64,000 nt of DNA from Devosia sp. 66-22 (GTDB taxonomy: Bacteria; Pseudomonadota; Alphaproteobacteria; Rhizobiales; Devosiaceae): positions 117,021 to 181,020 of the forward strand of contig MKUZ01000014.1 in assembly GCA_001899065.1 (NCBI GenBank), in the 5' to 3' direction. Shown in pieces: positions 14,129-58,307 of the stretch (positions within the stretch are counted from its first letter, which is position 1; the number at the start of each line of letters is the position of its first letter). The notes under the pieces were generated by a model, which was not told where the DNA came from, did no database searches, and worked only from the letters and a program-made list of their open reading frames with translations. A program made the position numbers and the translations under genes.

Positions 14129-17100
14129 TCAGAAGGCGACGCGCAGGGTCGCATTCGCGCTGTGCTGCGTCGCTCCTGCGGCCAGCACGCCGTCATAGTC
14201 GAGAGCGAGCGTCGCCGTCTCGCCCAAAGCGAGGTTGAGATCGAGCCCGAGCGCAAGGCCGCCGGCCGGTCCGGACCGTCCGCGGATCATCCGCCGCTCG
14301 CCGCCCGCAAAGCCCAGCATCGCGAGCGACGCGTCTCCGGCCAGCCGCTGTTGCCAGCCGGCCGAGGCGCGCATCCTGCCGGGTCCGAGTTCAGCATCGG
14401 CGGCGAGGCCCAGGGTCGCCACCACCACGCCGCTCTGTCGTGCTTCGCCACTGAGCGCGGCGTCGCCGCCGGTCTCGCTGAAGGCCGGTGTTGCGAGGCC
14501 GACATAGGCGAGACTGGCGAACGGCTCGAGGCCCAGCGGTCCGGCCTCGATGCGGTAGCCAGCTTCCATGAAGGTTTGCGTCGCGAGGGCGGCGTAGCCG
14601 GCCGTGAGCGTGTCGGCGTAGCCGGGGAAGGCGACGCGCCGCTCGGTGCCGACACTGTGGAGCGTCGCCGCCGCGCCGCCGCGCAGGGCAAGTCCGCCCA
14701 GTGCCGCGCCGCCATAACCGCCCAGCGTGACATCGCTGCTCGTGGCCGTGCCGATGCGGCTGCTGCCCGCGCCGCCATAGACGCCCAGCACGGTGGTGCC
14801 TGGGCCCGGCAAATCGGCGCCGAACAGGAAGCCGCCGGTGCGCAGGTCGAGGCTGCCGTCGACAAGGCCATAGCCGGTGGTCCACAGCGTCGCGCCGGGT
14901 TCGCAGCTCGACGTGCGTGCGCACAGCGCCTCGCGCAGCCGGTCGAGCGCCGCCTCGCGCAGCGGCCGCGTCGCGTCGACCAGTCCGGCGCGCACATCGG
15001 CATGCAGGTCGCCGGTCAACTGACCGAGCGCCCGTGCGGCGCTGTCATCGTCGGGCAGCGACAACAGCGCCGTCCGCGCGGCGTTGCCGGGCGGCGTGCT
15101 TTCCAGCGCCTCGGCGATGGCCGTCTGGTTCGGTGTCGCCGCGGCTTCAGCAAGGCGGCGCGTCTGCACGACGGTGAGATAGGCGTTGCGTGCGTCGTAC
15201 TCGTCCTCGAGGCCGAGGAAGGCGCTGACCGCAAGGTCGCCGGTGAGCGTGAAGGTGCCGCTCAGGCTGTTGGCGGCGCTCAGCACCGCGTAGCGCGTGC
15301 CCACGCGCCCGGCCGCGGTGCCCAGTTGCGTCACGTCGAGCCGCGCGCCGGGGCGGAGGATGACGTTGCCGTCGCCGGCCAGCGGTGCCGACTCTTCGAC
15401 GAGAATCCTGTCGGTGACATTGGCGTCGCGGTCGAATTCGAGCGCATAGGTGCTCGAGCCGTCCTGCAGGTAGCCGCCGACAATTGTCAGTGTGCCGGGG
15501 CTGTTGCCGGGAGCGATCGTCGCGCCGTCGGTGATCAGGTTGCCATAGATCACGCCGCTGCCCTTCACCACCGTGCCGGGATTGGCGTAAACCGTGGCGG
15601 CTACCGAGCCCGCCTGGGTGGCGCTGCCCAGGACCAGCGTGCCGGCGTCGATGTTGAACACCGTGGCATCGATATGCTTGTCGATGGTCCAGGTGCCGCT
15701 GCCCTGCTTGACGACGGTGGAGGCGAACACCGTGTCGTTGGTGACCGCGTCCGAGTAGAGCTGCGTTCCGGCGCCGTCGAGGATCAGCCGCGAGGTCGAG
15801 TTGCTGCCGATATGGAGATCGCCGGTGATGCGGCTGCCAGTCAGCAGCGTCACGCTGTTGCTCGCCTCCTCCTCCAGCCACACATTGCCCTCGATCGTGC
15901 CGGCATTGACCACATTGGTGTCGCCGAAGGCGTGGATGCCGGTCGAGGTCGAGGCGATGGTCGAGCCGGCGCCGTTGATCACCGTGCCGCCGTTCTCGTA
16001 GAGATAGATGGCGATCGGCCCGCCCTCGATGCGGCCGCCATTGCTGTTGGTGACGCTGCCGCCTTCGGCGAGGACAATCCCGTAGTCGGTTGCGGGCACG
16101 TTGATCGTCGCCGCGTCGTTGCTGATCTGCGCCGTCCCGGCGCTGATGCCGGCGATGGTGGCGCCGGCGCTGTTGCGGATCACCGCGCTGCCATCCACCG
16201 TGACGCTGCCGAGCGTCGAGGCGTCGTTGCTGATCTCCGCATCGCCACCCACATGGAGGTCGCCCATGCGGCTGCCGGCGGTGTTGGCCACATTGCCATC
16301 GCCGCCGATATGGGCAGCCTGGCTGCCCTCGATCGAGCCGCCATTGGTGTTGGTGATCGTGCCATCGTCGCGGATGAAGACGCCGGTCGCCCGGTCGCCG
16401 GTGATCGTCGCGCCGTCATTGGTGACGGTGCCGTCGCCGACAATCCACACGCCCATGCCGCCATCGGCGTCGCCGCCGCCTGCGATCGTCGCGCCGTCGC
16501 TGTTGACCACGATACCCGCGCCGCCATTCTCCCCGTTGAGGTAGATGCCCTGCGCCTTGCCGCGGATCCGGCTGTCGGTGCCGGTATTCGTCACGCTGGC
16601 GGGCGCGCCCAGCGAATAGATGCCCACAACTTCGGCGTCGATCTGCGCGCCGCTGCTGTTGCTCACGTCGCCGCCAAAATAGAGCGCAACGCCGCTGCCG
16701 TCGCGGCTGACGATGCGTGCGCCGTCCTGGTTGGTCACGTCGCCGGCGTCATACTCGTAGAAGATCGCGTAGGAATCGGCGGCGATCAGGCTGTCCGTGC
16801 CGCTGTTGGTGACCTTGCCCGTCGCCGAAAAACGCAGGCCCGCATAGCCGCCATCGATGACGGCGCCGTCCTCATTGATGACGGCGAGGGAGTCGGTGTC
16901 GACCGGAATCATCAGGTCGACGCCCACGCCGCCGCCCACTGTCCTGATAGTGCTGCCCGCGCCGGAATTGCGCAGCGTGCCGTAGTCCCAGATCACCACG
17001 CCGACCCGGCTCGAGTGGATCGTGGCACCACCCGAATTGGTGACGTCGCCGCCCCAGTCGAGCACGATGCCGTCGGCGGCCGCCACGATGCTGGCGCCGT

Positions 17101-18184
17101 CGCCGTTTGTCACCTCGCCGACATCGCCCAGATAGATGCCGGTGCCGTCGGCCTCGATCGAGGTGCCCGCCCCGGAGTTGGTCACCGTGCCGCCCAGCGC
17201 CAGGGCGATGCCGTCGCCTCTCGATGAGATGGTGGCGCCATCCCGGTTGGTCACCTCGCCGGCCTCGCTAAGCGCGATGCCGGTGCCGCTGGCCGTGATC
17301 GAGGCATCCGCGCCCGCACTGGTGACGGTGCCGCCCGCGACGTTGACGCCGTCGCCGTCGGTCACCTCGATAGTGCCGTTGTTGGTGACGCGCGTGGAGG
17401 CGTCGCCATAGATGCCGTCGGAGACGCCGCGGATAATGGCGCCGGCACCGTTCTCGACGACGCCCCCGCCCTCGATATGGACCGCGGTGCGGCCATCGAG
17501 AGTGCTGCCCTCGCCGCTGTTGATCAGCGTGCCGCCGCCCCTGATATGGACGACGCGGCCAGTGCCGATCACTTTCGCGCCGTCGCTGTTGGTCAGGGTG
17601 CCACCGTCTCCGAGCACGCTGATGCCGCCAGTGATCTGGCTGCCCGCGCCCGTATTGGTGACGCTGCCGCCCTCCCACACCATCACGTCGCCGACGATGC
17701 TGCCGCCGTTGCGGTTGATGACTTCGCCGGTATCGCCCTGGAGGCTGATGCCGTAGACGGTGCCCGAGATCAGCCCGCCATCGTTGAGCACGCTGCCGCC
17801 CTCGTAGAGCAGCACGCCAGTGGCGCCATTGGCGGTGATGACGCCGGTCGCGCGGTTGATCACGTGACCGTTGCCGCCCACCACGCCACGATTGCCGCTG
17901 CCCGTGCGGGTGATGCTGCCAGCATTGTCCACCGTCGCGCCGTTCTGGAGGTCTACCGTATTGGTCAGCGGCAGGCTGCCGCTTCTGATTTCGAGCACCG
18001 TGCTCGCACCGCTGACGATGAACGCGTCATTGGCGCCGTAAGGCGTGCCCGGATAGACCACCGTGCCGCTGGTGATGGTGTGCGTCGCGCCCACCGCCGG
18101 GGCTGCAGCCAGCAGTGCGGCCAGAGCTCCGCCGGTCCAGGGCAGCCAGTCACGCTGCCGCGGAAGGACACTCCTGCGCGCCAT
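14129..18184 (-). CDS. large autotransporter with repetitive beta-helix passenger
   Basis: 1351 residues from the ATG at 18184, chosen because a signal peptide (LPWTGGALAALLAAAPAVGA) follows and GGGA lies upstream. The passenger (about residues 40-1080) is built from roughly 20-residue repeats of the type GGxVTNSxGAxI / GxGIxLxxGG, as in adhesin-like beta-helices. A linker with a proline/glycine-rich APGNSPGTL motif precedes the C-terminal barrel (about 1085-1351), which ends in phenylalanine (ATLRVAF) as required for BAM assembly. Likely a type Va surface protein, possibly an adhesin. The barrel has two closely spaced cysteines near its start (CARTSSC). Divergent from a putative regulator 74 bases away. 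Confidence 0.85.
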   Translation of the reverse strand: MARRSVLPRQRDWLPWTGGALAALLAAAPAVGATHTITSGTVVYPGTPYGANDAFIVSGASTVLEIRSGSLPLTNTVDLQNGATVDNAGSITRTGSGNRGVVGGNGHVINRATGVITANGATGVLLYEGGSVLNDGGLISGTVYGISLQGDTGEVINRNGGSIVGDVMVWEGGSVTNTGAGSQITGGISVLGDGGTLTNSDGAKVIGTGRVVHIRGGGTLINSGEGSTLDGRTAVHIEGGGVVENGAGAIIRGVSDGIYGDASTRVTNNGTIEVTDGDGVNVAGGTVTSAGADASITASGTGIALSEAGEVTNRDGATISSRGDGIALALGGTVTNSGAGTSIEADGTGIYLGDVGEVTNGDGASIVAAADGIVLDWGGDVTNSGGATIHSSRVGVVIWDYGTLRNSGAGSTIRTVGGGVGVDLMIPVDTDSLAVINEDGAVIDGGYAGLRFSATGKVTNSGTDSLIAADSYAIFYEYDAGDVTNQDGARIVSRDGSGVALYFGGDVSNSSGAQIDAEVVGIYSLGAPASVTNTGTDSRIRGKAQGIYLNGENGGAGIVVNSDGATIAGGGDADGGMGVWIVGDGTVTNDGATITGDRATGVFIRDDGTITNTNGGSIEGSQAAHIGGDGNVANTAGSRMGDLHVGGDAEISNDASTLGSVTVDGSAVIRNSAGATIAGISAGTAQISNDAATINVPATDYGIVLAEGGSVTNSNGGRIEGGPIAIYLYENGGTVINGAGSTIASTSTGIHAFGDTNVVNAGTIEGNVWLEEEASNSVTLLTGSRITGDLHIGSNSTSRLILDGAGTQLYSDAVTNDTVFASTVVKQGSGTWTIDKHIDATVFNIDAGTLVLGSATQAGSVAATVYANPGTVVKGSGVIYGNLITDGATIAPGNSPGTLTIVGGYLQDGSSTYALEFDRDANVTDRILVEESAPLAGDGNVILRPGARLDVTQLGTAAGRVGTRYAVLSAANSLSGTFTLTGDLAVSAFLGLEDEYDARNAYLTVVQTRRLAEAAATPNQTAIAEALESTPPGNAARTALLSLPDDDSAARALGQLTGDLHADVRAGLVDATRPLREAALDRLREALCARTSSCEPGATLWTTGYGLVDGSLDLRTGGFLFGADLPGPGTTVLGVYGGAGSSRIGTATSSDVTLGGYGGAALGGLALRGGAAATLHSVGTERRVAFPGYADTLTAGYAALATQTFMEAGYRIEAGPLGLEPFASLAYVGLATPAFSETGGDAALSGEARQSGVVVATLGLAADAELGPGRMRASAGWQQRLAGDASLAMLGFAGGERRMIRGRSGPAGGLALGLDLNLALGETATLALDYDGVLAAGATQHSANATLRVAF

Positions 18185-26352: not shown

Positions 26353-26469
26353 ATCGGGGGGTATGGAAGCGCCTTTGCAACCGTGCGAGCTTGGGAGGGG
26401 CGACACAACCTCAATCAGGCCGCTCGCACCACTCCCGCGGTCAGCACCATCGCGCCCACCCCACAGCTG

Positions 26470-26495
26470 TCATCCCGCGCAGGCGGGGACCCAAC
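26470..26495 (-). repeat. short palindromic intergenic repeat, copy 2
   Basis: Opposite orientation to copy 1: starts with TCATCCCGC and ends GGCGGGGACCCA. Shows the same stem region with small differences. Confidence 0.65.
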
Positions 26496-26604
26496 TCTCA
26501 CCGCCCACTTACCCCTCATGGGGGTGAGCGAAGTGACCAAAAATTGTCCCCGCAACGCCCTGAGGATCCTGGCCTCTCCGGACTTATTTCTCCCACTTAT
26601 CCCC

Positions 26605-26956
26605 GTCCCCTGGGGCCGTGATATTCTCCCCTCACTGCGTCCTCATCGAGCGACTCGAGACGAACGGGCGGGGGCGCAGGGCCGGGTGGTGCGGGGGTCG
26701 CCTCGCACCCGGCGGGACAGAGCGGATCGTGCGGGCATTCCCTGGCCCGGGGTCCGGCGCAGATGGGCACCATGGTCGGTGTCCATCGCGGAGCAAATGG
26801 GCGGATCGTCGCCCCATCCCTCCAGAGCGGCGCCGCGCCAGCACTCAAGGCAGCCACCTCTCCCCTCTGACCGTCCGAGCGCCCGGATCGCAGCGGCGAG
26901 GCGACGAGCCTCAATGTTTGCGGACTACCCGCGTCGAGGCCTCGCCTCGCCGCTGC
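26605..26956 (+). repeat. structured dispersed repeat, copy A (candidate ncRNA)
   Basis: About 350 bp matching 34529-34885 in reverse orientation. Landmarks in order: -10-like TATTCT at 26622-26627; hairpin 1 at 26688-26709 (9-bp stem, loop GTCG); hairpin 2 at 26763-26786 (ATGGGCACC / GGTGTCCAT, loop ATGGTC); terminal stem 26890-26904 with 26942-26956 (15 bp, perfect); apical hairpin 26920-26932 with loop ACTAC. Sequence outside the stems is nearly the same as in copy B, whereas hairpin 2 and the terminal stem differ but still pair. It ends 179 bases before the acyl-CoA ligase on the same strand. Confidence 0.75.
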
Positions 26957-27053
26957 AGCTCTTTACCCGAAAGGGCAAGAGCATCCCCATCGAGCGACCG
27001 GTCGAGCCCGGTCAGGGGCTTCCGCTCGCCCGCAAAACCGGGTGCCATTGCCG

Positions 27054-27097
27054 TTGCGTAACGTAGTTGACGCATAGGGAAAGCCCTGCTCTAGTTT
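27054..27097 (+). promoter_or_regulatory. possible MerR-type promoter of the acyl-CoA ligase operon
   Basis: TTGACG at 27067-27072 and TAGTTT at 27092-27097 are separated by 19 bp, the long spacer typical of MerR-controlled promoters; the spacer contains an AGGG/CCCT dyad. A CGTAACG dyad lies just upstream (27056-27063). The MerR regulator encoded as second gene of this operon is the natural candidate to bind. Confidence 0.45.
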
Positions 27098-27135
27098 CTG
27101 CGAGAGGGCGAAAACGCTCCGAGGAGGGATTTCAC

Positions 27136-28854
27136 ATGGATACCGTTGCCGCCGCGCATCCGCGACCATGGGTCGAGCACTATCCCGAAGGCATCGCCTG
27201 GGACGTCTCCGTCAATCTCACGCCGGTGCACGAGCAGCTGCTCGCCGCGTGCGAGCGCAATGCCGGTGCCGTGGCCCTCGACTTCCTTGGGGGGACGACC
27301 AGCTTCGGCGAGCTGGGCAAGGCCATCAGGGCCTTCGCCGGTGCGCTCCAGACGCAGTACGGCGTCAAGAAGGGCAGCCGCGTGGCGCTGCTCCTGCCCA
27401 ATACGCCGTTCTACGCCGTCGCCTATTACGGCGTGCTACTGGCGGGCGGGACGGTGGTCAACTGCAACCCGCTCTACACCGTGCACGAGCTCAGCCACAT
27501 CACCTCGAATGCCGGCGCCGACGTGCTTGTGACCCTCGACCTCAGGCAGATCTTCGAGAAAGCCGAAGCGCTGGTCAAGGCCGGCCACGTCAAGAGGATC
27601 ATCGTCTGCCACTTCCCGGCCGCGCTGCCCACCGTCAAGCGCATCCTCTACTCGATCGCCAAGCGCAAGGACCTCGCCAGGATCGGCGCGTCACCGGCCG
27701 CGGGGGCGTGTACCTGGTACGCCGATCTCATCGCGCGCAACGACCGGCCGACACCTGTCGCGATCGACGCCCTCACCGACGTGGCGGTCCAGCAATATAC
27801 CGGCGGCACGACCGGTCTGCCCAAGGGCGCCATGCTCAGCCACGGCAATATCGCCGCCAATATGAGCCAGATCGACGCCTGGGGCTGCGGGCTGTTCTAT
27901 CCGCCCAGCAAGGTCGTGGCCGTGCTGCCCTTCTTCCACATCTTCGCGATGACCGTCTGCCTCAACGTGCCGCTCTGCAACGGTACACAGGTCGTGATGA
28001 TGCCGCGCTTCGAGCTCAAGGGGTTCCTCGACCTGCTGCGCCGGACGCGCCCCAATGTGCTGCCGGCGGTGCCCACGCTGATCCAGGCGCTGGCCAAGGT
28101 CAGCGGCGCCGATCGCGAGGCGCTCGACTGCCTCGACGTGGTGATCTCGGGCGGCGCCGCGCTGCCGGACGAAGCCCGCGGCAAGTTCGCCAAGGTCTCC
28201 AAGGCCATCCTGGCCGAAGGCTACGGTCTCACCGAGGCGTCGCCGGTGGTGTGCTGCGCGCCGCTGCGCGTGCCCTCCAAGGCACTCTCGATCGGCATGC
28301 CGTTGCCGGCGACGGATGTGCGCTTCATCGATATCGAGACCAATGAAGTGGCCAAGCTCGGCGAGCGTGGCGAGCTGCAGGTCAAGGGGCCGCAGGTCAT
28401 GCTGGGCTACTACGAGAATCCCGATGCGACGCGGGAGGCGTTCATGGATGGCTGGTTGCGGACGGGCGATGTCGGCTATGTCGACGCGGACGGCTATGTG
28501 TTCCTGGTCGACCGCATCAAGGATCTGATCATTTCGTCTGGCTTCAACATCTATCCGCGCACCATCGAGGAGGCGCTGGTCGCCAACCCGGCCGTCGACG
28601 AGGCCAATGTGATCGGCGTTCCGGACGAGTATCGCGGCGAAGCGGCCGTGGCCTTCGTCAAGCTCAAGGACGGGCAGACGATCAGCGAGGGCGATCTCAA
28701 GAAGTTCATCGGCGAGCGGCTCAACAAGCTCGAGATGCCGCGCGAGATCATCTTCAAGGACCAGCTCCCCAAGACGCTCATCGGCAAGCTCTCCAAGAAG
28801 GAGCTACGCGACGAGTACAAGGCGATGAAGGGACAAAAGAGTGAACCGGCCTGA
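27136..28854 (+). CDS. long-chain fatty acid--CoA ligase
   Basis: 572-residue adenylate-forming enzyme that activates fatty acids to acyl-CoA with ATP. ATP-binding motif QYTGGTTGLPKGAMLSH, A5-like GYGLTEASPVV, core DGWLRTGDVGYVDADGY and the C-terminal catalytic lysine in LPKTLIGKLSKKELR are intact. ATG 27136 has a GGAGGG site; the open frame extends upstream but is not conserved-looking. It feeds beta-oxidation, whose genes lie 6.5 kb downstream, and overlaps a MerR regulator by 14 bases. Confidence 0.92.
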   Translation: MDTVAAAHPRPWVEHYPEGIAWDVSVNLTPVHEQLLAACERNAGAVALDFLGGTTSFGELGKAIRAFAGALQTQYGVKKGSRVALLLPNTPFYAVAYYGVLLAGGTVVNCNPLYTVHELSHITSNAGADVLVTLDLRQIFEKAEALVKAGHVKRIIVCHFPAALPTVKRILYSIAKRKDLARIGASPAAGACTWYADLIARNDRPTPVAIDALTDVAVQQYTGGTTGLPKGAMLSHGNIAANMSQIDAWGCGLFYPPSKVVAVLPFFHIFAMTVCLNVPLCNGTQVVMMPRFELKGFLDLLRRTRPNVLPAVPTLIQALAKVSGADREALDCLDVVISGGAALPDEARGKFAKVSKAILAEGYGLTEASPVVCCAPLRVPSKALSIGMPLPATDVRFIDIETNEVAKLGERGELQVKGPQVMLGYYENPDATREAFMDGWLRTGDVGYVDADGYVFLVDRIKDLIISSGFNIYPRTIEEALVANPAVDEANVIGVPDEYRGEAAVAFVKLKDGQTISEGDLKKFIGERLNKLEMPREIIFKDQLPKTLIGKLSKKELRDEYKAMKGQKSEPA

Positions 28855-29239
28855 GAGCGAGAACCGCGACCTGTTCGCGATCGCCGACCTCGCCCGCGAG
28901 TTCGGCATCTCGACGCGAGCGATCCGCTTCTACGAGACCAAGGGGCTGCTCACGCCCGACCGCGTCGGCTCGACCCGCGTATTCCGCCGCCGCGACCGCG
29001 CGCGCCTGATCCTGATCCTGCGCGGCAAGCGGCTGGGCTTCTCGCTGCGCGATATCTCGGAATATCTCAGCCTCTACGACGCCGACCGCACGCAGCGTGC
29101 CCAGGTCAACCTGCTGGTCGATATGGTGGACCAGCGTGTGCAAATGCTCGAGCAGCAACTGGCGGATCTGCAGACGACGATCAGCGAGCTGCGCGAGATC
29201 AAGAAGCTCGCAACCGAGCGGCTGGCGCAAGCGAGCTAG
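28841..29239 (+). CDS. MerR family regulator (LiuR-like context)
   Basis: 132 residues. N-terminal winged helix (residues 10-80: FAIADLAREFGISTRAIRFYETKGLLTP, then RVFRRRDRARLILILRGKRLGFSL) and a C-terminal dimerisation coiled coil (about 90-128). No cysteine metal ligands, so it is not a metal sensor. The GTG start lies inside the ligase gene, implying cotranscription. MerR proteins of this sort (LiuR, for example) control acyl-CoA catabolism; the fad genes nearby carry a matching palindrome. The 3' end overlaps the opposite-strand signalling gene by 41 bases. Confidence 0.85.
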   Translation: MNRPESENRDLFAIADLAREFGISTRAIRFYETKGLLTPDRVGSTRVFRRRDRARLILILRGKRLGFSLRDISEYLSLYDADRTQRAQVNLLVDMVDQRVQMLEQQLADLQTTISELREIKKLATERLAQAS

Positions 29240-31412
29240 CATGATGCTCCATCCATTCCTCGAATACGGGGGGTGGCATGGCTTCGCCGAAGAGGTAGCC
29301 CTGCAGCACGTCGCAGCCGAGCGCCTCGAGGAAGCGCCGCTGCGCGACGCTCTCCACCCCTTCGGCGACGACCCTGAGCTTGAGCGTCTCGCCGATCCGG
29401 ATCACCGCCGTGACCATGGCCTGCACCGCCTCGTTCTCTTCGAGGTCGGCCATGAAGCTGCGGTCGATCTTGAGCTCCGACACGGGGAGCTTGGCGAGAT
29501 TGCTGAGCGAGGAATAGCCGGTGCCGAAATCGTCCATCGAGATGGTCACGCCCATCGCGCGGAGCCGGCGGGCATTGTCGAGCGCCGTCGGATAGCCCTC
29601 CATCATCACGCTTTCGGTCACCTCGACGGTCAGCCGGCCGGCAGCGAGGTCGTGCTTGGCGAGGGTTTGGGCGATGACGAAGGGGAAGTCGGGATTGCGG
29701 AACTGGATGGCCGAGATGTTCACCGCGATGTGAGGAACCTCATAGCCCGCCTCGTCCCACCGGCGAAGCTGTGCGCAGCCGGCACCGAGGCAGGCCTCGC
29801 CGATCGTCTCGATGAGGCCGAAGTCCTCCGCCAGCGGAATGAAGCGCGCGGGGGGGACGGCGCCGAGCGCCGGGTGAGTCCAGCGCGCGAGCGCTTCGAC
29901 ACCGGCGACCGCGCCGGTCGCGGCGTCGATCTGCGGCTGGTAGGCGAGGCCGACCTGGCCCTGTTCCACGGCGTCGCGGAGCAGGGCGCCGAGCAGCAGG
30001 CGGTCCTGGGCCATGCGGTTCATTTCGGTGGTGAAGAAGCGGAAGGTGCTGCGGCCCTCGCTCTTGGCGCGGTACATCGCGGTGTCGGCGTTGCGCAGCA
30101 GAGTTGCACTGTCGGTGCCGTTGTCCGGGCACAGGCTGATGCCGATACTGGCGGATGCGGGCAGCGTGACGCCCTCGACGCGAACCGGCTGGGCGAGGCG
30201 GCCGAGCAGCGCTTCCGCGACACGCTGGGCGCGCGGGCCGTCGGCGCCGTCAAGGACGATGACGAATTCGTCGCCGCCATGGCGGCAGACGATGTCGACG
30301 TCCCAGACTTCGGCGACGATGCGGCTGGCGATCTCCCTGAGAAAGCTGTCGCCGACCGGGTGGCCGAGCGTGTCGTTGACGTCCTTGAAGTGGTCGATGT
30401 CGACGAAGAGAAGCGCGGCGGGGCCCGGGGAGTCCGTCGCATCGAACCGCGCTTCCATCTGCTCGCGCAGCATGGTGCGGTTGGGCAGGCCAGTGAGGCC
30501 GTCATAGTAGGCGAGACGGCCAATACGGGTGGTCGCCTCGTCGCGCTCGAGGGCGACCACGCAGAGATTGACGCAGGCGCGCACGATGTGTTCGTGCCAG
30601 ATGCTCGGCCCGCGCTTCTGCCGATAGTAGAAAGCGAAGGTGCCGCCGACCCGGCCGTCGCGCAGCGTGATCGGGCTCGACCAGCAGGCGAGGAGGCCGA
30701 GCGGCAGGGGCAGGGCCTTGAAGTCGTCCCACAGCGGATCGGTCTCGATGTCCTCGACCACAACCGATTGCTTGCGCCAGGCGGCCGTGCCGCAGGAGCC
30801 GTGCTTGGGGCCCATGCGGAGGCCGTCGATGGCGGCGCCGAAATGTGGCGGCAGAGCGGGGGCGGCCAGAGGGTGGAGGCGCTCTTCCTCGTCGACGGAA
30901 AGGATGGAGCACACGACGTCGGGCGCGATGTACTCGACGCGGCGGCAGATGAGATCCATCACTTCGCGGAGCGGGCGGTCCTGCGCGATGGCTTCGAGCA
31001 CGTCGCGCTGCATGCGCTGAATCTGCTTGCTGTCGTTGATGTCGGAGAAGACCAGCAGGTAGTGCGCGAGCTCGCCGTCATCGTCGTAGAGCGGCTTGAC
31101 GACGGTCGACATCCAGAAGACCTCGCCATGTTTGCCGACGACAGGGACTTCTTCCTCGAAGGTGCGGCGCTGCGCGATCTCGCCGCGCAGGCGGTCGAGG
31201 ATACCACCGTCGAAGCCCTCGGTCGCAAGGAGGTGCGCGGCGTTGCGGCCTTCCATGTCGCCGCGCGGGTAGCCGAACATGCTGTGGAAGGCGCGGTTCG
31301 AATAGACGATGCGGCCGGACGCATCGGCGACAAGCACCGCATGATCGATCTGTTCGGCGGCCAGGGCGACATAATCGTTCGCCGGCCGGTCCAAAGTCCC
31401 CGGGTCGTCCAT
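29199..31412 (-). CDS. PAS-GAF-GGDEF-EAL cyclic di-GMP signalling protein
   Basis: 737 residues from the ATG at 31412 (GGAAGG nine bases upstream); a longer frame adds 63 residues that look noncoding. PAS about 15-130, GAF about 140-285, GGDEF about 300-460 with intact HGGDEF, EAL about 475-725 with GVEALARW, DDFGTGYSS and a KIDRSF block. Both catalytic motifs look competent, so it could make or break c-di-GMP. The RxxD inhibitory site expected five residues before GGDEF is absent (WDVD instead). No membrane helix, so a soluble sensor. It ends inside the MerR gene on the other strand. Confidence 0.92.
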   Translation of the reverse strand: MDDPGTLDRPANDYVALAAEQIDHAVLVADASGRIVYSNRAFHSMFGYPRGDMEGRNAAHLLATEGFDGGILDRLRGEIAQRRTFEEEVPVVGKHGEVFWMSTVVKPLYDDDGELAHYLLVFSDINDSKQIQRMQRDVLEAIAQDRPLREVMDLICRRVEYIAPDVVCSILSVDEEERLHPLAAPALPPHFGAAIDGLRMGPKHGSCGTAAWRKQSVVVEDIETDPLWDDFKALPLPLGLLACWSSPITLRDGRVGGTFAFYYRQKRGPSIWHEHIVRACVNLCVVALERDEATTRIGRLAYYDGLTGLPNRTMLREQMEARFDATDSPGPAALLFVDIDHFKDVNDTLGHPVGDSFLREIASRIVAEVWDVDIVCRHGGDEFVIVLDGADGPRAQRVAEALLGRLAQPVRVEGVTLPASASIGISLCPDNGTDSATLLRNADTAMYRAKSEGRSTFRFFTTEMNRMAQDRLLLGALLRDAVEQGQVGLAYQPQIDAATGAVAGVEALARWTHPALGAVPPARFIPLAEDFGLIETIGEACLGAGCAQLRRWDEAGYEVPHIAVNISAIQFRNPDFPFVIAQTLAKHDLAAGRLTVEVTESVMMEGYPTALDNARRLRAMGVTISMDDFGTGYSSLSNLAKLPVSELKIDRSFMADLEENEAVQAMVTAVIRIGETLKLRVVAEGVESVAQRRFLEALGCDVLQGYLFGEAMPPPVFEEWMEHHASSLAPAARLRAS

Positions 31413-31581
31413 CCTGGACAGCCTTCCCTTGTGCCCCACGACGCTGATTGAGGCCTCGATGCCCTCATCGGGGGGCAAGACTATGAAGAATCCGCCACCG
31501 GGCCACTGCCAAAGATCAGTGGCCCGACAACTGTGTGTCGCCGTGGTTATGGGAATCTTTCCGGCGTTCGGACAATGGAGA

Positions 31582-31836
31582 TTAGCGGCCACGTTTGACA
31601 TTCGTTGTCATCGGATCGGGCTTTCGCGGGCGTTTCCAGCCCTTGGGCGGCGCGGCCACGGGGACGTGCGTGCCGAGCCCCATCTGCCCCGGCGGCGGCT
31701 TGCGGACCGAGGGTCCCTTCAGCTCCTCGATCTCGTTGCGGAGGCGGGCGGCGAGCTCGAAATCCTCGGCCTCCGCCGCCTCCTGCATGCGCCGGGTGAG
31801 ATCGTTGACCTTGCGTTCGATCGACTGCGACGACAT
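31582..31836 (-). CDS. UvrB/UvrC motif-containing small protein
   Basis: 84 residues. A UVR motif fills residues 5-40 (IERKVNDLTRRMQEAAEAEDFELAARLRNEIEEL), the helical hairpin by which UvrB and UvrC contact each other. The rest is a basic, proline-rich tail (KPPPGQMGLG, PKGWKRPRKPDPMTT). The start overlaps the ligase stop by one base, so it belongs to the exonuclease-ligase operon and may recruit repair proteins. The function is inferred from motif and location. Confidence 0.82.
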   Translation of the reverse strand: MSSQSIERKVNDLTRRMQEAAEAEDFELAARLRNEIEELKGPSVRKPPPGQMGLGTHVPVAAPPKGWKRPRKPDPMTTNVKRGR

Positions 31837-33413
31837 CAGGTGGCCTCCAGGAAGATCTGCATATCGTCGAGGGTCGCGGCTTCGGCGGCCGGCTTGTCCC
31901 AACGAATGCGGTTGATGCGCGGGAAGCGCAGGGCGACTCCCGATTTGTGGCGAGTCGAGGCCTGCGCCGAGTCGAATGCAACCTCGAATACGAGTTCCTT
32001 GCGCACTTCGCGGACCGGTCCGAAGGCGGCGACGGTATTGTTGCGCACCCATTTGTCGAGCTGCCTGAGCTCTTCGTCGGTGAAGCCGAAATACGCCTTG
32101 CCGATCGGCACGATCTCGTTGCCCTTCCAGACCCCGAACGTGTAGTCGGAGTAGAACGACGATCGCTTGCCGTGGCCGCGCTGCGCGTACATCAGGATGG
32201 CGTCGACGACATTGGGATCGCGTTTCCACTTGAACCACAGCCCCTTGGGCCGCCCGGGCACATAGGGCGACGTCCTGAGCTTGAGCATGACGCCTTCGTG
32301 GCCGTGCTCGGCGGCGCCTTTGCGGCGCAGGTCGGCCAAAGAGGGCCAGTCGGCAAAGGTGAGGACCTCGGAGAGATCGAGGCGGCGCTGCGGGTTGCGC
32401 GCGAACCAGTCCTCGAGATGGGCGCGGCGCTCGCTCCAGGCAAGGGGGCGGATGTCCTGTCCGCCGTCGAACAGCATGTCGTAGACGCGCACGAAGGCGG
32501 GAAACTCCTCCTGCAGCTTAGGGGTCGCCACCTTGCGGTTGAGGCGCTGTTGCAGGGCGTTGAACAGGTCAGGCTCAAAGTCGCGGCCGACAAGAAGCTC
32601 GCCGTCGAGCACGGCCTCGCCGAAGACGTTGTCTACGAGGTCCGGGAAGGCGCCGGCGATGTCGTCGCCGGTCCTCGAGAACAGCGAGACCTTGCCCTTG
32701 CCCAGGATGAGCTGGACCCGGATGCCGTCCCATTTCCACTCCGCAGCGAAATCGGCAGGGGCCAGCACTGCGAGGTCCTTCTCCTCGTCGATGGGATTGC
32801 TGAGCATCATGGGGTGGAAGCGCGAGGCATGATCGATATCGGGGCGCTCGCCCTTGTCCTCGAGCCAGTCGAACAACTCGGTGTAGGGCAGGGTAATGCC
32901 GTGCCAGATCTCCTCGAGCTGCTGCAGGTCCTTGCCGCTCATATTGGCGAGCGCGGTCTTGGCCAGGCGGGCGCTTAAGCCGATGCGGAGCGCGCCGGTC
33001 GCGAGCTTGACCAGCGCCCAGCGCTCATTGATGGCGGCGCGGGTGAGGAGCGAGGCGATGAGTGCCGGCAGTTCGGACTTGCTCGTGGTGTTGAACAGCT
33101 CGATCAGATCGGTCAGCGAGGGAAGGTCGTCCTGTGCGCCGTGGTGCGGCCAGATCAGCGCGATGGTCTCACCGAGGTCGCCGACATAGTCGTAGCTCAT
33201 GCCGAACAGCACGGGATCGACCTCGCGGGTGACGACGTCGCGCAGCACGGCGGGCTTGACGTTCTTGAAGCTCAGCGCGCCGGTGAGGATGGCGAGGGCA
33301 TAGCCGCGGTCGGGATCGGGCGTCGTGGCGAAATACTGCGTCAGCGCCTCGATCTTGCGGTTGCGCGAGGGGGTGAGGGCGAGGAGCTCGAGAAGCTGGG
33401 CGAACTTCTTCAC
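31836..33413 (-). CDS. ATP-dependent DNA ligase, ligase-associated repair type
   Basis: 525 residues. N-terminal DNA-binding region (about 1-190), nucleotidyltransferase domain with motif I EWKWDGIR containing the adenylated lysine near residue 226, later blocks LDGELLV, EGVMLKL and WFKWKR, and an OB-fold domain (about 400-525). It seals nicks using ATP, unlike the essential NAD-dependent LigA. The four-base overlap with the exonuclease gene is typical of this module. The DEXH helicase and PdeM nuclease usually found with it are not adjacent. Confidence 0.92.
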   Translation of the reverse strand: MKKFAQLLELLALTPSRNRKIEALTQYFATTPDPDRGYALAILTGALSFKNVKPAVLRDVVTREVDPVLFGMSYDYVGDLGETIALIWPHHGAQDDLPSLTDLIELFNTTSKSELPALIASLLTRAAINERWALVKLATGALRIGLSARLAKTALANMSGKDLQQLEEIWHGITLPYTELFDWLEDKGERPDIDHASRFHPMMLSNPIDEEKDLAVLAPADFAAEWKWDGIRVQLILGKGKVSLFSRTGDDIAGAFPDLVDNVFGEAVLDGELLVGRDFEPDLFNALQQRLNRKVATPKLQEEFPAFVRVYDMLFDGGQDIRPLAWSERRAHLEDWFARNPQRRLDLSEVLTFADWPSLADLRRKGAAEHGHEGVMLKLRTSPYVPGRPKGLWFKWKRDPNVVDAILMYAQRGHGKRSSFYSDYTFGVWKGNEIVPIGKAYFGFTDEELRQLDKWVRNNTVAAFGPVREVRKELVFEVAFDSAQASTRHKSGVALRFPRINRIRWDKPAAEAATLDDMQIFLEAT

Positions 33414-34408
33414 TGCTCGTCCTCCGGGCCGTCCTCATAGGCCTCGATGTTGAGCGGCTCGGCGGCTAGGCCCTGCTGCTGGCTCCAATAGATCAGCGCG
33501 TCCTCGCGGCCATGCGTGACCCAGACCGTGCCGGCGCCGGTTTCGCCGATGGTCTGGCGCAGTTCGTTCCAGTCGGCGTGGTCGGAGATGACGAGCGGCA
33601 GCTCGACACCGGACTGGCGGGCGCGCTGCTTGACGCTCATCCAGCCTGAGGCCACGGCAAGGACGGGGTCGGGCAGGCGGCGCGACCAGCGGTCCTTGAT
33701 GGCGGAGGGCGGGGCGATGACGATCTGCCCGGCGAGCTCGGCCTTGGGCACGTCGAGCGAGTGCCTGAGATCGCCGAGCGGGATACCGCGCTCGACGTAG
33801 AGCTCGCACAGGCGGATCATCGCGCCGTGAAGATAGATGGGCGCATTGTAGCCGGCCTGCCTGAGCAGCGAGATGACGCGCTGCGCCTTGCCAAGGGCAT
33901 AGCAGCCGATGACATGGGCGCGCTCGGGGAAGGCGGCGACGGAGCGGAGCAGGCGGCCGATTTCGTCGGTGGGCTTGGGATGCTGGAACACAGGGAGGCC
34001 GAAGGTCGCCTCGGTGACGAGGAGGTCGCATGCGAGCAACTCGAAAGGTTGCGCGGTGCGGTCAGGAAGGCGCTTGTAGTCGCCGGTGACGACGATGCGC
34101 TGGCCGCGATGCTCGAGCAGCACCTGGGCCGAGCCGAGGATGTGGCCGGCGGGGTGGAGCGAGACGGTGACGCCGTCAATGTCGCGCTTCTCGCCGAAGG
34201 GCAGTTCCTCCCAGCGCCCCGCGGCATCCTCGCCATAGCGCGTCTTCATGATGGCGATGGTGTCGGGCGTCGCGAGCACGGCGCCGTGACCGGCGCGGGC
34301 GTGGTCGGCATGGCCGTGGGTGATGATGGCGCGGGCGCGGGGCTGCGGCGGGTCGACATAGACGTCGATGGGAGCAATGCGCAGGTCGCGGTCGAGGAAG
34401 GGTTTCAT
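33410..34408 (-). CDS. ligase-associated DNA damage response exonuclease
   Basis: 332 residues, metallo-beta-lactamase/beta-CASP fold nuclease. Zinc motif HGHADHA near residue 31-37, HPAGHILGSAQ, TGDYKR and a C-terminal SDHADWNEL supply the metal ligands. Members of this family occur with the ATP-dependent ligase encoded immediately downstream and take part in DNA damage repair. ATG at 34408 gives the usual N-terminus. A structured repeat (copy B) lies 120 bases upstream on the same strand. Confidence 0.9.
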   Translation of the reverse strand: MKPFLDRDLRIAPIDVYVDPPQPRARAIITHGHADHARAGHGAVLATPDTIAIMKTRYGEDAAGRWEELPFGEKRDIDGVTVSLHPAGHILGSAQVLLEHRGQRIVVTGDYKRLPDRTAQPFELLACDLLVTEATFGLPVFQHPKPTDEIGRLLRSVAAFPERAHVIGCYALGKAQRVISLLRQAGYNAPIYLHGAMIRLCELYVERGIPLGDLRHSLDVPKAELAGQIVIAPPSAIKDRWSRRLPDPVLAVASGWMSVKQRARQSGVELPLVISDHADWNELRQTIGETGAGTVWVTHGREDALIYWSQQQGLAAEPLNIEAYEDGPEDEQ

Positions 34409-34528
34409 GGGCCGATGTTAACGCGCGTTGGGGGAAGGCGGTTCTGAATTCGGACGAGCGCACCCGCCGGACGGCCATGCGGCTCCCGGGTTTGGGGGAT
34501 GCTCCTTCGCCCTGTGGGCAAGGGAGCG

Positions 34529-34885
34529 GCGAGGCGGGACCATGGGTCCAGCCGGTTAGTCCGGCGAAGTAAGGGACCATTGGTCCCGCCTCGCGATCCG
34601 GGAGCTCGGACGGTCAGAGGGGAGAGGTGGCTGCCCTTGAGGGCTGGCGCGGCGCCGCTCTGGAGGGGATGGGGCGACGATCCGCCCATCCGCTCCGCGA
34701 TGATGGTCGATCATGACCATCATCTGCGCCGGACCCCGGGCGCAGGAAGCTGCCCGCACGATCCGCTCTGTCCCGCCGGGTGCGAGGCGACCCTCGCACC
34801 ACCCGGCCCTGCATCCCCGCCCGTTCGTCTCGAGTCGCTCGATGAGGGTGCAGTGAGGAGGAGTATACGCCCGGTGCCAGGGACC
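34529..34885 (-). repeat. structured dispersed repeat, copy B (candidate ncRNA)
   Basis: Minus-strand partner of 26605-26956. In minus orientation: -10-like TATACT (34867-34862); hairpin 1 (34800-34779, perfect 9-bp stem, loop GTCG); hairpin 2 (34723-34700, perfect ATGATGGTC / GACCATCAT, loop ATGATC); terminal stem 34594-34581 with 34542-34529 (14 bp, perfect); apical hairpin 34565-34551 (GCCGG-ACTAA-CCGGC). Stem sequences differ from copy A yet still pair. It ends 120 bases before the exonuclease gene. Confidence 0.75.
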
Positions 34886-34987
34886 GTGCGTAAGTTGGGC
34901 CGAAATCGGGGTGTGAGGCCTGAGATTACTGGCGACTCCGCGAGTCAAACTGATGCGGTTTTGCACAGGGTGTGACGCAGCCGCAGG

Positions 34988-35014
34988 TATCATCCCGGCG
35001 CAAGGCTGGGACCC
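34988..35014 (-). repeat. short palindromic intergenic repeat, copy 3
   Basis: TATCATCCCGGCGCAAGG...GGGACCC form, same family as copies 1 and 2. With copy 4 it makes a head-to-head inverted pair. Confidence 0.65.
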
Positions 35015-35039
35015 ATTCATCCGCTGGCGCAAGGTGAGA

Positions 35040-35067
35040 GCTGGGTCCCAGCTTTCGCTGGGATGAC
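35040..35067 (+). repeat. short palindromic intergenic repeat, copy 4
   Basis: GCTGGGTCCCAGC...GCTGGGATGAC form. Opposite orientation to copy 3, from which it is separated by about 25 bases. Confidence 0.65.
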
Positions 35068-35166
35068 AGCCGGTGGGTGGGGCGCGACGGTGCGCGCTTG
35101 CGTTCGGCCCATCAATCGTCATCCGATAGCGGGCGACGCTTCAGCTAAAGCGGCAAGCCCCCACCC

Positions 35167-35202
35167 ACCGGCTGCGCCGGTCCCCCCTCCCCGATGGGAG
35201 GG
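35167..35202. repeat. tandem GC hairpins
   Basis: ACCGGC-tgc-GCCGGT (35167-35181) followed by CCCTCCC-cgat-GGGAGGG (35185-35202). The second resembles the hairpin repeats at 398-471. No T-run. Confidence 0.6.
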
Positions 35203-35278
35203 AGGGGCTCGGTGGCTCCGCATCAATGGAGCCGATCTCCATCAACCCGCATCGGCGCATGCCGTTAACGGCGGTTGG

Positions 35279-35308
35279 TTGACGTATACGTCAATGAGAG
35301 GGTAGAGT
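35279..35308 (+). promoter_or_regulatory. fadE promoter with perfect 16-bp palindrome
   Basis: TTGACGTATACGTCAA at 35279-35294 is a perfect palindrome. Its first six bases can act as a -35 box, with TAGAGT at 35303-35308 as -10 (18-bp spacer). The ACGT-centred dyad plus long spacer fits a MerR-type acyl-CoA regulator such as the protein at 28841-29239. A related imperfect dyad lies at 41268. Confidence 0.6.
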
Positions 35309-56800: not shown

Positions 56801-58307
56801 GCAGCAGCCGGCGCCCATCGTGTTCAAGGACTTCTTCACCAAGCCGACGACGTTCAGCACGCCCGCCTGTGTGCCGACCGGCGGGCACTTCACCTGTACG
56901 CGCGTGACGCCGCTCAATGCGGGCGCCACCTGGACGGTGCAGGCGACGTCGCATGTCGACCCCAACGGCGTGACGCTGGCCGACTGCAACGTGGTCAACT
57001 CGGTGTGGATCACCAATCCGGCCAATGCCGATCCGGGCCACTTCTCGCAGGCCGAGCAGAAGGTGCCGCAGCTGTTCATCAACCTCGGGCCCGGACCGGT
57101 CTACGTCTATTGCGACCCGCCCAGCATCGCGCTCGAAAAGACCGCGACCAAGACGGTGAAGGCGGGCGACGGCCATGATGCGACGTTCCGCATCAAGGTG
57201 ACGTCGACCGGACCCGACCCCTACAACGGGACGGTCGAGCTCGACGAGGACCTGCCCGAGGGCACGAGCTATGTGTCGAGCAGCTGGCCGTGCGTGCCGA
57301 CGACGGACAACAATGTCCACTGCTCGTCGCCTTACAAGACGCTGCCCGTGGGCACCTACACGACGATGACGATCACCATCCACATCCCCGAGGATGTGGC
57401 CAAGGAGAGCGCGTGCGAGGTCGTCAATGTGGTGAATGCCGCGATCTCGGCCGAAGTGCTGCATTCGGACGAAGGGCTGCAGTACACGGCGTCGGCCGCA
57501 GCCAAGCTGCCGGCGAGCGTGTGCCGCGACGAGCCCGAGCCGCCGCAGTGCCCGATCAACCAGGTGATGCCGGATGGCGGTTGCTGCCCGGCGGGCGAGG
57601 TGTGGACCGGCAAGCAGTGCGCGCCGCCCAAGCCGATCTGCCCCGACGACAGCCACATCAACAGCGCCGGCAAGTGCGTGTGCGATGCGGGCACCACGGG
57701 CAAGCCGGGGTCGTGCGAGGAGCCGGAAGACATCACGCCGGCCTGCCCCGATGACAGCCACATCAACAGCGCCGGCAAGTGCGTGTGCGACCGTGGGACC
57801 GAGGGCAGACCGGGGTCGTGCGAGCCGGTCGATGTCGAGGAAGAGCCCAGTTGCCCCAAGGACAGCGTGCTCAACAGCCGCGGCGAGTGCGTGTGTAAGC
57901 GTGGTACCGAAGGCCAGCCAGGCTTCTGCGAGGAGATCGTGGAAGAGCCGGTCTGCCCCAAGGACAGCGTGGTCAACAACCGCGGCGAGTGCGTCTGCCG
58001 GCGCGGCACGGAAGGCGAGCCGGGCAACTGCCAGGCGGTGATCGTGATCCCGATCTGCCCTGACGACAGCGTGCTCAACACTCGCGGCGAGTGCGTGTGC
58101 AAGCGCGGCACGGAGGGTGAGCCCGGCAACTGCCAGAGGCCCGACTTCGACGAGCCGATCGAGGACGAGCCCGACAAGGTGAGCTGCCCCGACGACAGCG
58201 TGCTCAACAATCGCGGGCAGTGCGTATGCAAGCGCGGCACGACGGGCAAGCCGGGCAACTGCCAGATCGAGCTGCAACTCGACCTGGGACCGATCAAGAT
58301 CTTCTGA
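53838..58307 (+). CDS. large secreted protein with DUF11-like repeats and six cysteine-rich C-terminal repeats
   Basis: 1489 residues. ATG 53838 has AGGAG five bases upstream and starts a signal peptide (AAVAAFLGLTALPGTALA); a longer frame is less plausible. Residues about 30-520 are beta-rich with WKIDGVTGEV and DLDTGLIYRLALDG segments, resembling a beta-propeller. Residues about 527-1225 hold five DUF11/CARDB-like domains. Residues 1268-1475 hold six repeats of C-x11-C-x-C-x10-C (CPxDSxxNxxGxCVCxxGTxGxPGxC) separated by acidic linkers. Many cysteines imply disulphides outside the cytosol. No cell-wall anchor; role unknown, perhaps surface adhesion. Confidence 0.8.
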   Translation: MPSLSRLSVTRLHWTAAAVAAFLGLTALPGTALAASDVFAPGQPVLTGFPGVVTADEMPDGSDPLDYSFIDPDGLSLVIQQLQPEAPPEGQLIETSNAFGVSAADVGLVFGIALDDAPETTGADAPNVYVAATSAFGLYAVVPDADGNPVRTRTGDPDAAFMAGQWGSADGATGYPGSIWKIDGVTGEVSLFTTIAANSGPSLGDIVFDSGSQQFFVSDLDTGLIYRLALDGSIVDTYDHGVDGRPAHDLDAVADDGATMDVTDAAFDSEDPSTWGFTPVERRVNGLAAYNGRLYYAALEPQQIWSARINDDGSLSAPRWELDITGLGAPNEITSLAFDSKGRMVLAQRGATTGVYDYSTLTQVASSAVVRYEREFPDDPDTESTWVETPDSYAIGVAEPGTYAAGGIAFGYGYDEASGSFDGACGVTLWATGDALRDNAELDPPLEGPAYVAGLQGVPRSWVRPLNDPPTLSAFTDFDGNTDDGQAALSGHVGDVAMWAPCGSDGPFVDPDEPDVLPPDDYVPPPSFNLSLEKWASPFACFDGGANWWCSFTIRVENTGDAPYWGPIAIEDHLPANNPGASMSFWPSPPWSCGPTGPTSAECTRGPVLLFPGEGVTLHETVKLPKALVDYCYVANVAGLSWPFGLHDDDPSDDFDVGVASIAAPGCVPPGGGSDLLLKKVAAPWCFDAGATYNCSYVVSVQNVGPGNYSGPIQVQDTLGINAPATVIGPWACAQAGPVLTCDIVAAPVNVPPGWTSGFLVTAHVPKGPGSPLCELVNRANIASPLGGPSNSVAGNDFDEATANVPNPLCLLPASDSDLQAKKQGLGCGAFFSGWYCEWKITITNVGTTPYIGPLGFEDRSTGAVFNTLPSVAPFCAGTPTDVDCNPIGPVFYAPGVPHSLTFYTFYNGGPTVCSANNTLTIVNPSPGSADNPAGNDSVTRAQTIPNPACAGLPVLNITKTAKGCAPDPSSPDWLCKWDIKVKNVGGAQQPAPIVFKDFFTKPTTFSTPACVPTGGHFTCTRVTPLNAGATWTVQATSHVDPNGVTLADCNVVNSVWITNPANADPGHFSQAEQKVPQLFINLGPGPVYVYCDPPSIALEKTATKTVKAGDGHDATFRIKVTSTGPDPYNGTVELDEDLPEGTSYVSSSWPCVPTTDNNVHCSSPYKTLPVGTYTTMTITIHIPEDVAKESACEVVNVVNAAISAEVLHSDEGLQYTASAAAKLPASVCRDEPEPPQCPINQVMPDGGCCPAGEVWTGKQCAPPKPICPDDSHINSAGKCVCDAGTTGKPGSCEEPEDITPACPDDSHINSAGKCVCDRGTEGRPGSCEPVDVEEEPSCPKDSVLNSRGECVCKRGTEGQPGFCEEIVEEPVCPKDSVVNNRGECVCRRGTEGEPGNCQAVIVIPICPDDSVLNTRGECVCKRGTEGEPGNCQRPDFDEPIEDEPDKVSCPDDSVLNNRGQCVCKRGTTGKPGNCQIELQLDLGPIKIF
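57639..58262 (+). repeat. six tandem coding repeats (cysteine-rich)
   Basis: Six 26-codon units in the 3' part of the gene, each keeping four cysteine codons and the core VCxxGTxGxPG. Units 1-2 share HINSAGK and units 3-6 share the NxRGE/Q core, which indicates stepwise duplication. Confidence 0.85.

Follow-up and report, generated by a model that had tools for sequence, protein, structure and literature searches.

What is the structured repeat that occurs in two opposite copies, copy A on the plus strand and copy B on the minus strand, in a 64,000-nt stretch of the Devosia sp. 66-22 genome (the window, whose positions are used as coordinates throughout)? A preliminary description had proposed a candidate non-coding RNA (ncRNA) or a mobile RNA-like element. 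From comparative sequence analysis, we consider it probable, at roughly 75%, that 15 dispersed genes of this genome, A and B among them, encode an undescribed, family-restricted, multi-copy and highly structured ncRNA of ~400 nt.

Both copies are present as first reported, and four inverted blocks with 81–98% complementarity connect 26630-26891 with 34593-34858. The repeat is real, but the count of two copies and the length of ~350 bp fell short: a model of its 5' core (R2, described below) finds 15 copies in the same genome (G000), A and B among them, and the unit ends ~75 nt beyond the 3' limits given before. A DNA search of this genome with copy A also returned 15 matches, two of them short; the two lists overlap without being identical, L099 appearing only in the R2 list and L014 only in the DNA list. 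Alignments of 13 and then 14 copies established the order of the unit, which consists of CTTATCCCC (CTTACGCAC in B), TATTCT or TATACT, a body of ~300 nt, a long hairpin, a small covarying hairpin and a final CGCTCG block. The unit starts with a promoter-like CTTATCCCC-N17/18-TAnnnT and runs ~435 nt downstream, and past the last CGCTCG block the flanks of the own-genome copies are mostly unrelated. The 5' core is constant, the middle varies between species, and the long 3' hairpin has two versions in this genome and others elsewhere. A coding gene was ruled out by indels of 1, 2 and 4 nt among the copies, which keep no frame.

Evidence for a conserved fold was found within the genome. RNAalifold predicted 101 pairs from 14 own-genome copies, 36 of them with two-sided changes. 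In hairpin 2, almost every base pair was said to differ between A and B with pairing kept; the letters and the kept pairing are borne out, although the extent was overstated, five of the nine pairs being different. A simple simulation with five random changes per arm kept all nine pairs by chance with p = 0.00035. Over 14 of the 15 own-genome copies, the 112 cells of eight hairpin 2 pairs contain 96 Watson-Crick, 11 G-U, no A-C and five other combinations. The terminal stem, also claimed to covary, pairs well in both copies, but both versions of the 3' hairpin recur in other copies, so the contrast between A and B may represent a module swap rather than base-by-base covariation.

The comparison was extended across species with the 5' core, which full elements of several genomes suggested to be the constant part. 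It comprises P1, within which P1b closes a loop of the nGACGAR type, and P2, whose loop is GUCG. A motif scan of the fetched loci gave 51 distinct candidates, some not true members by eye; they had been collected with the promoter-like motif, four P1b pairs and GTCG as filters, leaving the P2 stem unfiltered. Twenty-nine candidates were aligned and 26 modelled as R2, with L149 and L159 left out as misaligned in P2 and L065 also left out. In these 26 sequences, 94.9% of cells are paired, 12 of 13 pairs show two-sided changes, and the covariation score of 0.803 compares with 0.336 for shuffled and at most 0.211 for slid controls. The 204 cells of P2 hold 153 Watson-Crick, 40 G-U, one A-C and 10 other combinations; shuffling the partners gave on average 43.1 G-U and 13.4 A-C, and 0 of 1000 shuffles was as low as one A-C. 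G-U is tolerated and A-C depleted, which fits an RNA read from the promoter-motif strand. A raw excess of G-U was dropped as proof of RNA, since shuffles give nearly as many, and the loss of A-C is the informative signal. The core thus shows the compensatory changes across species that mark an independent structured ncRNA gene, with the reservation that P1b pairs and GTCG served as filters. We speculate that the P1b and P2 loops contact each other (GAC:GUC). Equally speculative are a complementarity of the apical GGACTACC, a motif that varies, to the 16S h24 loop, and a likeness of CTTATCCMC to a DnaA box.

The upstream motif points in the same direction. Of the 84 R2 matches in the fetched loci, 38 have an exact CTTATCCCC and 55 have it with at most one mismatch, where shuffles lead one to expect 0.15 and 3.65; these counts are somewhat inflated because part of the R2 training set was chosen with this motif. 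The best matches begin 48–54 nt ahead of the R2 start in 65 of the 84, and TAnnnT is present in 29 of the 55 motif copies, lying 17–18 nt past the motif in 28. Within the window, CTTATCCCC occurs once, at A, and the -10-like boxes of A and B sit at the same place, as originally noted. Judged by sequence, the element has its own promoter-like signal at a fixed position, as an independent ncRNA gene would. Both A and B also lie upstream of a same-strand gene in the window, in agreement with the preliminary description. A simple codon-based gene caller placed a gene within 1.5 kb on each side of 65 of the 84 copies (19 were set aside). In these 65, the downstream gene runs in the direction of the copy in 38 cases and converges on it in 27 (4 of 13 copies in the own genome), and the upstream gene is co-directional in 45. 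Because the downstream gene is co-directional in only 38 of 65, the element is not simply its leader, and the consistent position upstream of a co-directional gene that characterises cis-regulatory leaders was not found. The earlier label of candidate ncRNA is supported by the covariation across genera, the depletion of A-C without depletion of G-U, the upstream motif at a fixed position, the mixed orientation of neighbours and the frame-breaking indels.

No Rfam 15 family reached its gathering threshold anywhere in the window, and at that threshold the 15 loci gave only tRNA and sul1 RNA, both outside the elements. A permissive scan of copy A returned sub-threshold matches only, mainly microRNA-type hairpins. 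Such an RNA in Devosia is not named in the titles and abstract openings of the open-licence PMC literature, among the matches listed. The predicted RNA is, with no Rfam family above threshold, undescribed.

The distribution of the element depends on which part is searched. By DNA search, 12 of 61 genomes, own included, were matched, mostly at the 3' hairpin, and R1, a model of this hairpin, matched 12 of 19 genus genomes (up to 25 matches) and 27 of 136 family genomes. Some R1 matches are the same palindrome on the opposite strand, and many are found at contig ends, where near-identical repeats are expected to fall. The 3' hairpin was rejected as the defining part because R1 had no match in G008 and G018, although members with the 5' core are present in both and have a different 3' domain; R2 was used for this reason. 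R2 matched 81 of 136 family genomes, representing 11 of 16 genera and giving 1 to 23 matches apiece; the genus contributed 15 of its 19 genomes. When the order was sampled evenly, 12 of 397 genomes matched, of which 11 belong to the family and one, a marginal match (E 4e-4), lies outside it; the family and order searches ran stricter filters that lose weak matches. In one genome per species (84,980 species), the exact core motif occurred in 59 stretches, whose titles name Devosia, an 'uncultured Rhizobiales bacterium' or a 'Hyphomicrobiales bacterium'; D. limi, D. insulae and Devosia sp. ZB163 have one or more each. Further copies that are not identical, recovered across genomes by a covariance model and covarying above the shuffled and slid controls, are what the preliminary description had called for. 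Copy A had no match among plasmids and phages, and one core motif was absent from viral contigs. Carriage by phages or plasmids was rejected; the two viral-contig matches to an 18-mer share one sequence that is coding-repeat-like by eye and matches R2 weakly (25.7 bits).

Within a genome the copies fall into near-identical groups, and more than one such group may be present. Computed over 332 nt, the median identity within a genome is 82% in G000 (14 copies), 53% in G008 (10), 59% in G015 (13), 61% in G028 (4), 79% in G033 (4) and 77% in G082 (5), with best within-genome pairs at 85–100% and between-genome medians of 47–57%. The ten G008 copies form one group of five at 93–98% and one looser group of five. 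Two subfamilies are seen in that genome, L283-L287 and L288-L291 with L170, which are ~50% identical and have different 3' domains. Three of 14 own-genome loci match the site of one of the 10 G008 copies, and two G018 loci matched none. Identity to the same-site G008 copy is 51% for A, 51% for B, 53% for L047 and 62% for L052 (the last near the top of 64% between G000 and G008 copies), and the best own-genome paralogue reaches 98, 100, 95 and 77%, respectively. These values fit gene conversion or replacement by recent duplicates.

Gene order around A and B was compared in six relatives for which the whole block was fetched (G008, G014, G010, G015, G011 and G002). Their order is PreP-like peptidase, exonuclease, ligase, (GGDEF-EAL in G008), MerR, acyl-CoA ligase (FadD) and acyl-CoA dehydrogenase, with exonuclease and ligase on the strand of the peptidase and MerR and FadD opposite. 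Relative to all six, the 7-kb block from FadD to the exonuclease is reversed in the window, between A and B. The FadD/dehydrogenase intergenic region of G008 is free of the element, and its two halves are split in the window: one lies at 27046 beside FadD, 15 nt past the end of copy A, and the other, next to the dehydrogenase, occupies 35260-35294 and is ~365 nt upstream of the B promoter motif, with other repeats between. In G008, a member separates PreP from the exonuclease; in G004, the exonuclease and FadD each have a member upstream, with outer flanks on other contigs or different. Recombination between the inverted copies would be the simplest account of the inversion.

The same region holds several further features. 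The palindrome TTGACGTATACGTCAA (35279-35294) beside the acyl-CoA dehydrogenase is retained in the G008 FadD/dehydrogenase region and is possibly an operator that the inversion would have split from FadD. The GGDEF-EAL gene of the inverted block (29202-31601) is matched in G008 and G004 and not found at that place in G014, G010, G015, G011 and G002. Repetitive extragenic palindromic (REP)-like palindromes of the GTCATCCC.GCG...GGGACCC type lie directly upstream of the elements (26460-26500 and 34990-35070); because they are shared along with the element in some copies (e.g. B and L011), a larger composite repeat is suggested. Upstream of the promoter motif, eight copies including B (34934-34946) carry the palindrome GACTCGCGGAGTC, or a close variant, with two GANTC sites, and A and a few other copies have an unrelated stretch in its place. 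Elsewhere in the window, direct-repeat sets occur at 57622-58269 and 15943-17726, with units of 102 and 44 nt.

Table 1. Features of copies A and B and of the inverted block (window positions)
Feature	Position	Strand	Basis or remark
Copy A, upstream motif CTTATCCCC, -35-like position	26596..26604	+	exact in 38, ≤1 mismatch in 55 of 84 copies
Copy A, -10-like TATTCT	26622..26627	+	sequence
Copy A, P1 outer stem	26635-26644 / 26670-26679	+	own-genome alignment fold
Copy A, P1b, inside P1	26654-26657 / 26665-26668, loop AGACGAA 26658-26664	+	cross-species comparison
Copy A, P2 hairpin, GTCG tetraloop 26697-26700	26688..26709	+	covariation
Copy A, hairpin 2, ATGGGCACC / GGTGTCCAT	26763..26786	+	covariation between copies
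Copy A, long 3' hairpin, apical GCGG-ACTAC-CCGC (model R1)	26888..26960	+	
Copy A, small covarying hairpin GCTCTT..AAGAGC, after 3' hairpin	26958..26982	+	
Copy A, whole putative transcription unit	26596..27030 (3' end about)	+	3' limit set by divergence of copies after CGCTCGCC
Copy B, whole putative transcription unit	34453 (about)..34894	-	CTTACGCAC 34886-34894, TATACT 34862-34867
Copy B, 5' core domain P1b + P2 (model R2)	34773..34842	-	
Copy B, hairpin 2, ATGATGGTC / GACCATCAT	34700..34723	-	
Copy B, long 3' hairpin, second version, apical CCGG-ACTAA-CCGG	34524..34597	-	
Stretch between split halves of G008-type FadD/dehydrogenase intergenic region	27046..35259		holds inverted block and copy B
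Inverted block genes: FadD, MerR, GGDEF-EAL, ligase, exonuclease	within 27046..35259		

Given these results, we propose that each copy would be transcribed on its own. The constant loops and fold suggest a trans-acting RNA, either protein-bound or self-assembling; the folded RNA would probably be the scaffold of an RNA-protein particle recognising the two conserved loops, with self-assembly of the RNA also considered. The many copies would serve dosage, gene conversion or recent duplication would keep them alike, and recombination of the inverted A and B, or of their ancestors, may have flipped the 7-kb FadD-exonuclease block. Several observations weigh against this proposal. P1b covariation and GTCG constancy arise partly by construction, because both served as collection filters, and the alignment (A8) was fitted to the model. 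RNAalifold on the own-genome copies alone favours another weak pairing inside P1 over P1b, so that P1b rests on the between-species comparison. Fifty-five of the 136 family genomes have no R2 match and many carriers are single-copy, which means that the RNA is not universally needed. Homogeneity goes by group, not by genome (medians 53–82%), the unlike same-site copies could be independent insertions, and at L052/L286 the two genomes differ in how the element is oriented to the shared gene. No U-rich terminator was noticed, and no protein partner, partner gene or target was found for the RNA.

A selfish mobile element, whose RNA fold would serve its own spread through an enzyme or recombination with no benefit to the cell, would suit the high and variable copy number, the patchy presence, the few positions common with G008 (3 of 14 loci) and the element-free FadD/dehydrogenase region of that genome. 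The term 'mobile' of the preliminary description stands to the extent of this limited sharing of sites; a transposition gene, a target duplication and a phage or plasmid carrier were not found, and neither terminal repeats nor target duplications were noticed at ends judged by eye only. Searches of the 19 genus genomes gave neither a Y1 transposase nor a reverse transcriptase; of the 136 family genomes, 5 had Y1 transposase and 37 had reverse transcriptase. Both were rejected as movers for lack of association with element carriage; 24 of the 37 reverse transcriptase-positive family genomes (hand count) hold the element, compared with 81 of 136 overall. With the missing plasmid and phage matches and the absence of one core motif from viral contigs also on the opposing side, we regard selfish mobility as possible but doubtful. 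The reverse transcriptase counts bear equally on a retron or group II intron relic, which the long hairpins and many copies might recall; these numbers and the lack of an Rfam intron match make it extremely unlikely.

Two further explanations were considered. That it is a DNA-level repeat of REP or bacterial interspersed mosaic element (BIME)-like palindromes, acting in recombination or nucleoid structure with no RNA, agrees with the copies at the inversion ends and the REP-like palindromes adjoining several of them, and is quite unlikely given G-U at the shuffled level while A-C is depleted, and the promoter-like motif at a fixed distance. REP/RAYT repeats are tied to a Y1 (RAYT) transposase, which none of the 19 genus genomes yielded. 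A cis-acting 5' leader, riboswitch-like or an attenuator of the downstream gene, is very unlikely, since that gene is so often convergent and the genes downstream of A (acyl-CoA ligase) and B (exonuclease) are unrelated. In its favour, both copies in the window precede a same-strand gene, and 14 of 84 copies have a boxA-like core, called with the alphaproteobacterial boxA sequence, in their 3' part, compared with 0.3 in plain letter shuffles. No 16S was found in this assembly from which the genome's own ribosomal RNA (rRNA) leader could be set beside this core.

If A and B are genes for a structured RNA, as we favour, they may, more tentatively, belong to a new class of genome-dispersed RNA genes, with up to ~20 concertedly evolving copies per genome in many members of the family, in which a large structured RNA might form a dosage-dependent RNA-protein or RNA-only machine and the copies might also act as points of chromosome rearrangement. 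Large structured bacterial RNAs are few. In this one, a complex fold would go together with many dispersed copies that are homogenised within a genome, and with no recognised enzyme to serve it. Its description would close a gap in the annotation of one bacterial family; it would be directly testable in culturable Devosia, and would be a case of RNA genes other than rRNA at rearrangement ends.

Among known systems, rRNA operons are present in several untranslated structured copies per genome that are kept alike, recombine with one another and carry boxA, all features that the element resembles; it is not universal, and no sequence relation to them is shown. Trans-acting small RNAs (sRNAs) of the Rhizobiales are ~100 nt long. 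Such sRNA families are reported in the Rhizobiales (PMC3927594), and they are similar in being intergenic alphaproteobacterial RNAs, some of them multi-copy. The element differs from them in its 400-nt fold, its larger number of copies and the lack of an Rfam match. Br-REP1 and Br-REP2, REP elements of Bradyrhizobium, are likewise dispersed intergenic palindromic repeats with fast turnover (PMC5082802). In contrast to REPs of tens of nt, the element is a ~435-nt unit bearing a promoter motif, is A-C but not G-U depleted, and occurs in a genus sample without Y1 transposase. OLE, GOLLD and ROOL are usually single-copy, and their Rfam models, all three assumed present in the library, matched neither the window nor the 15 loci. 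They are described as large ornate bacterial RNAs (PMC12286853, PMC9723947), and as large, elaborately folded bacterial ncRNAs they are similar to the predicted RNA. Compared with them, the element described here is ~400 nt long and present in up to ~20 dispersed copies in one alphaproteobacterial family.

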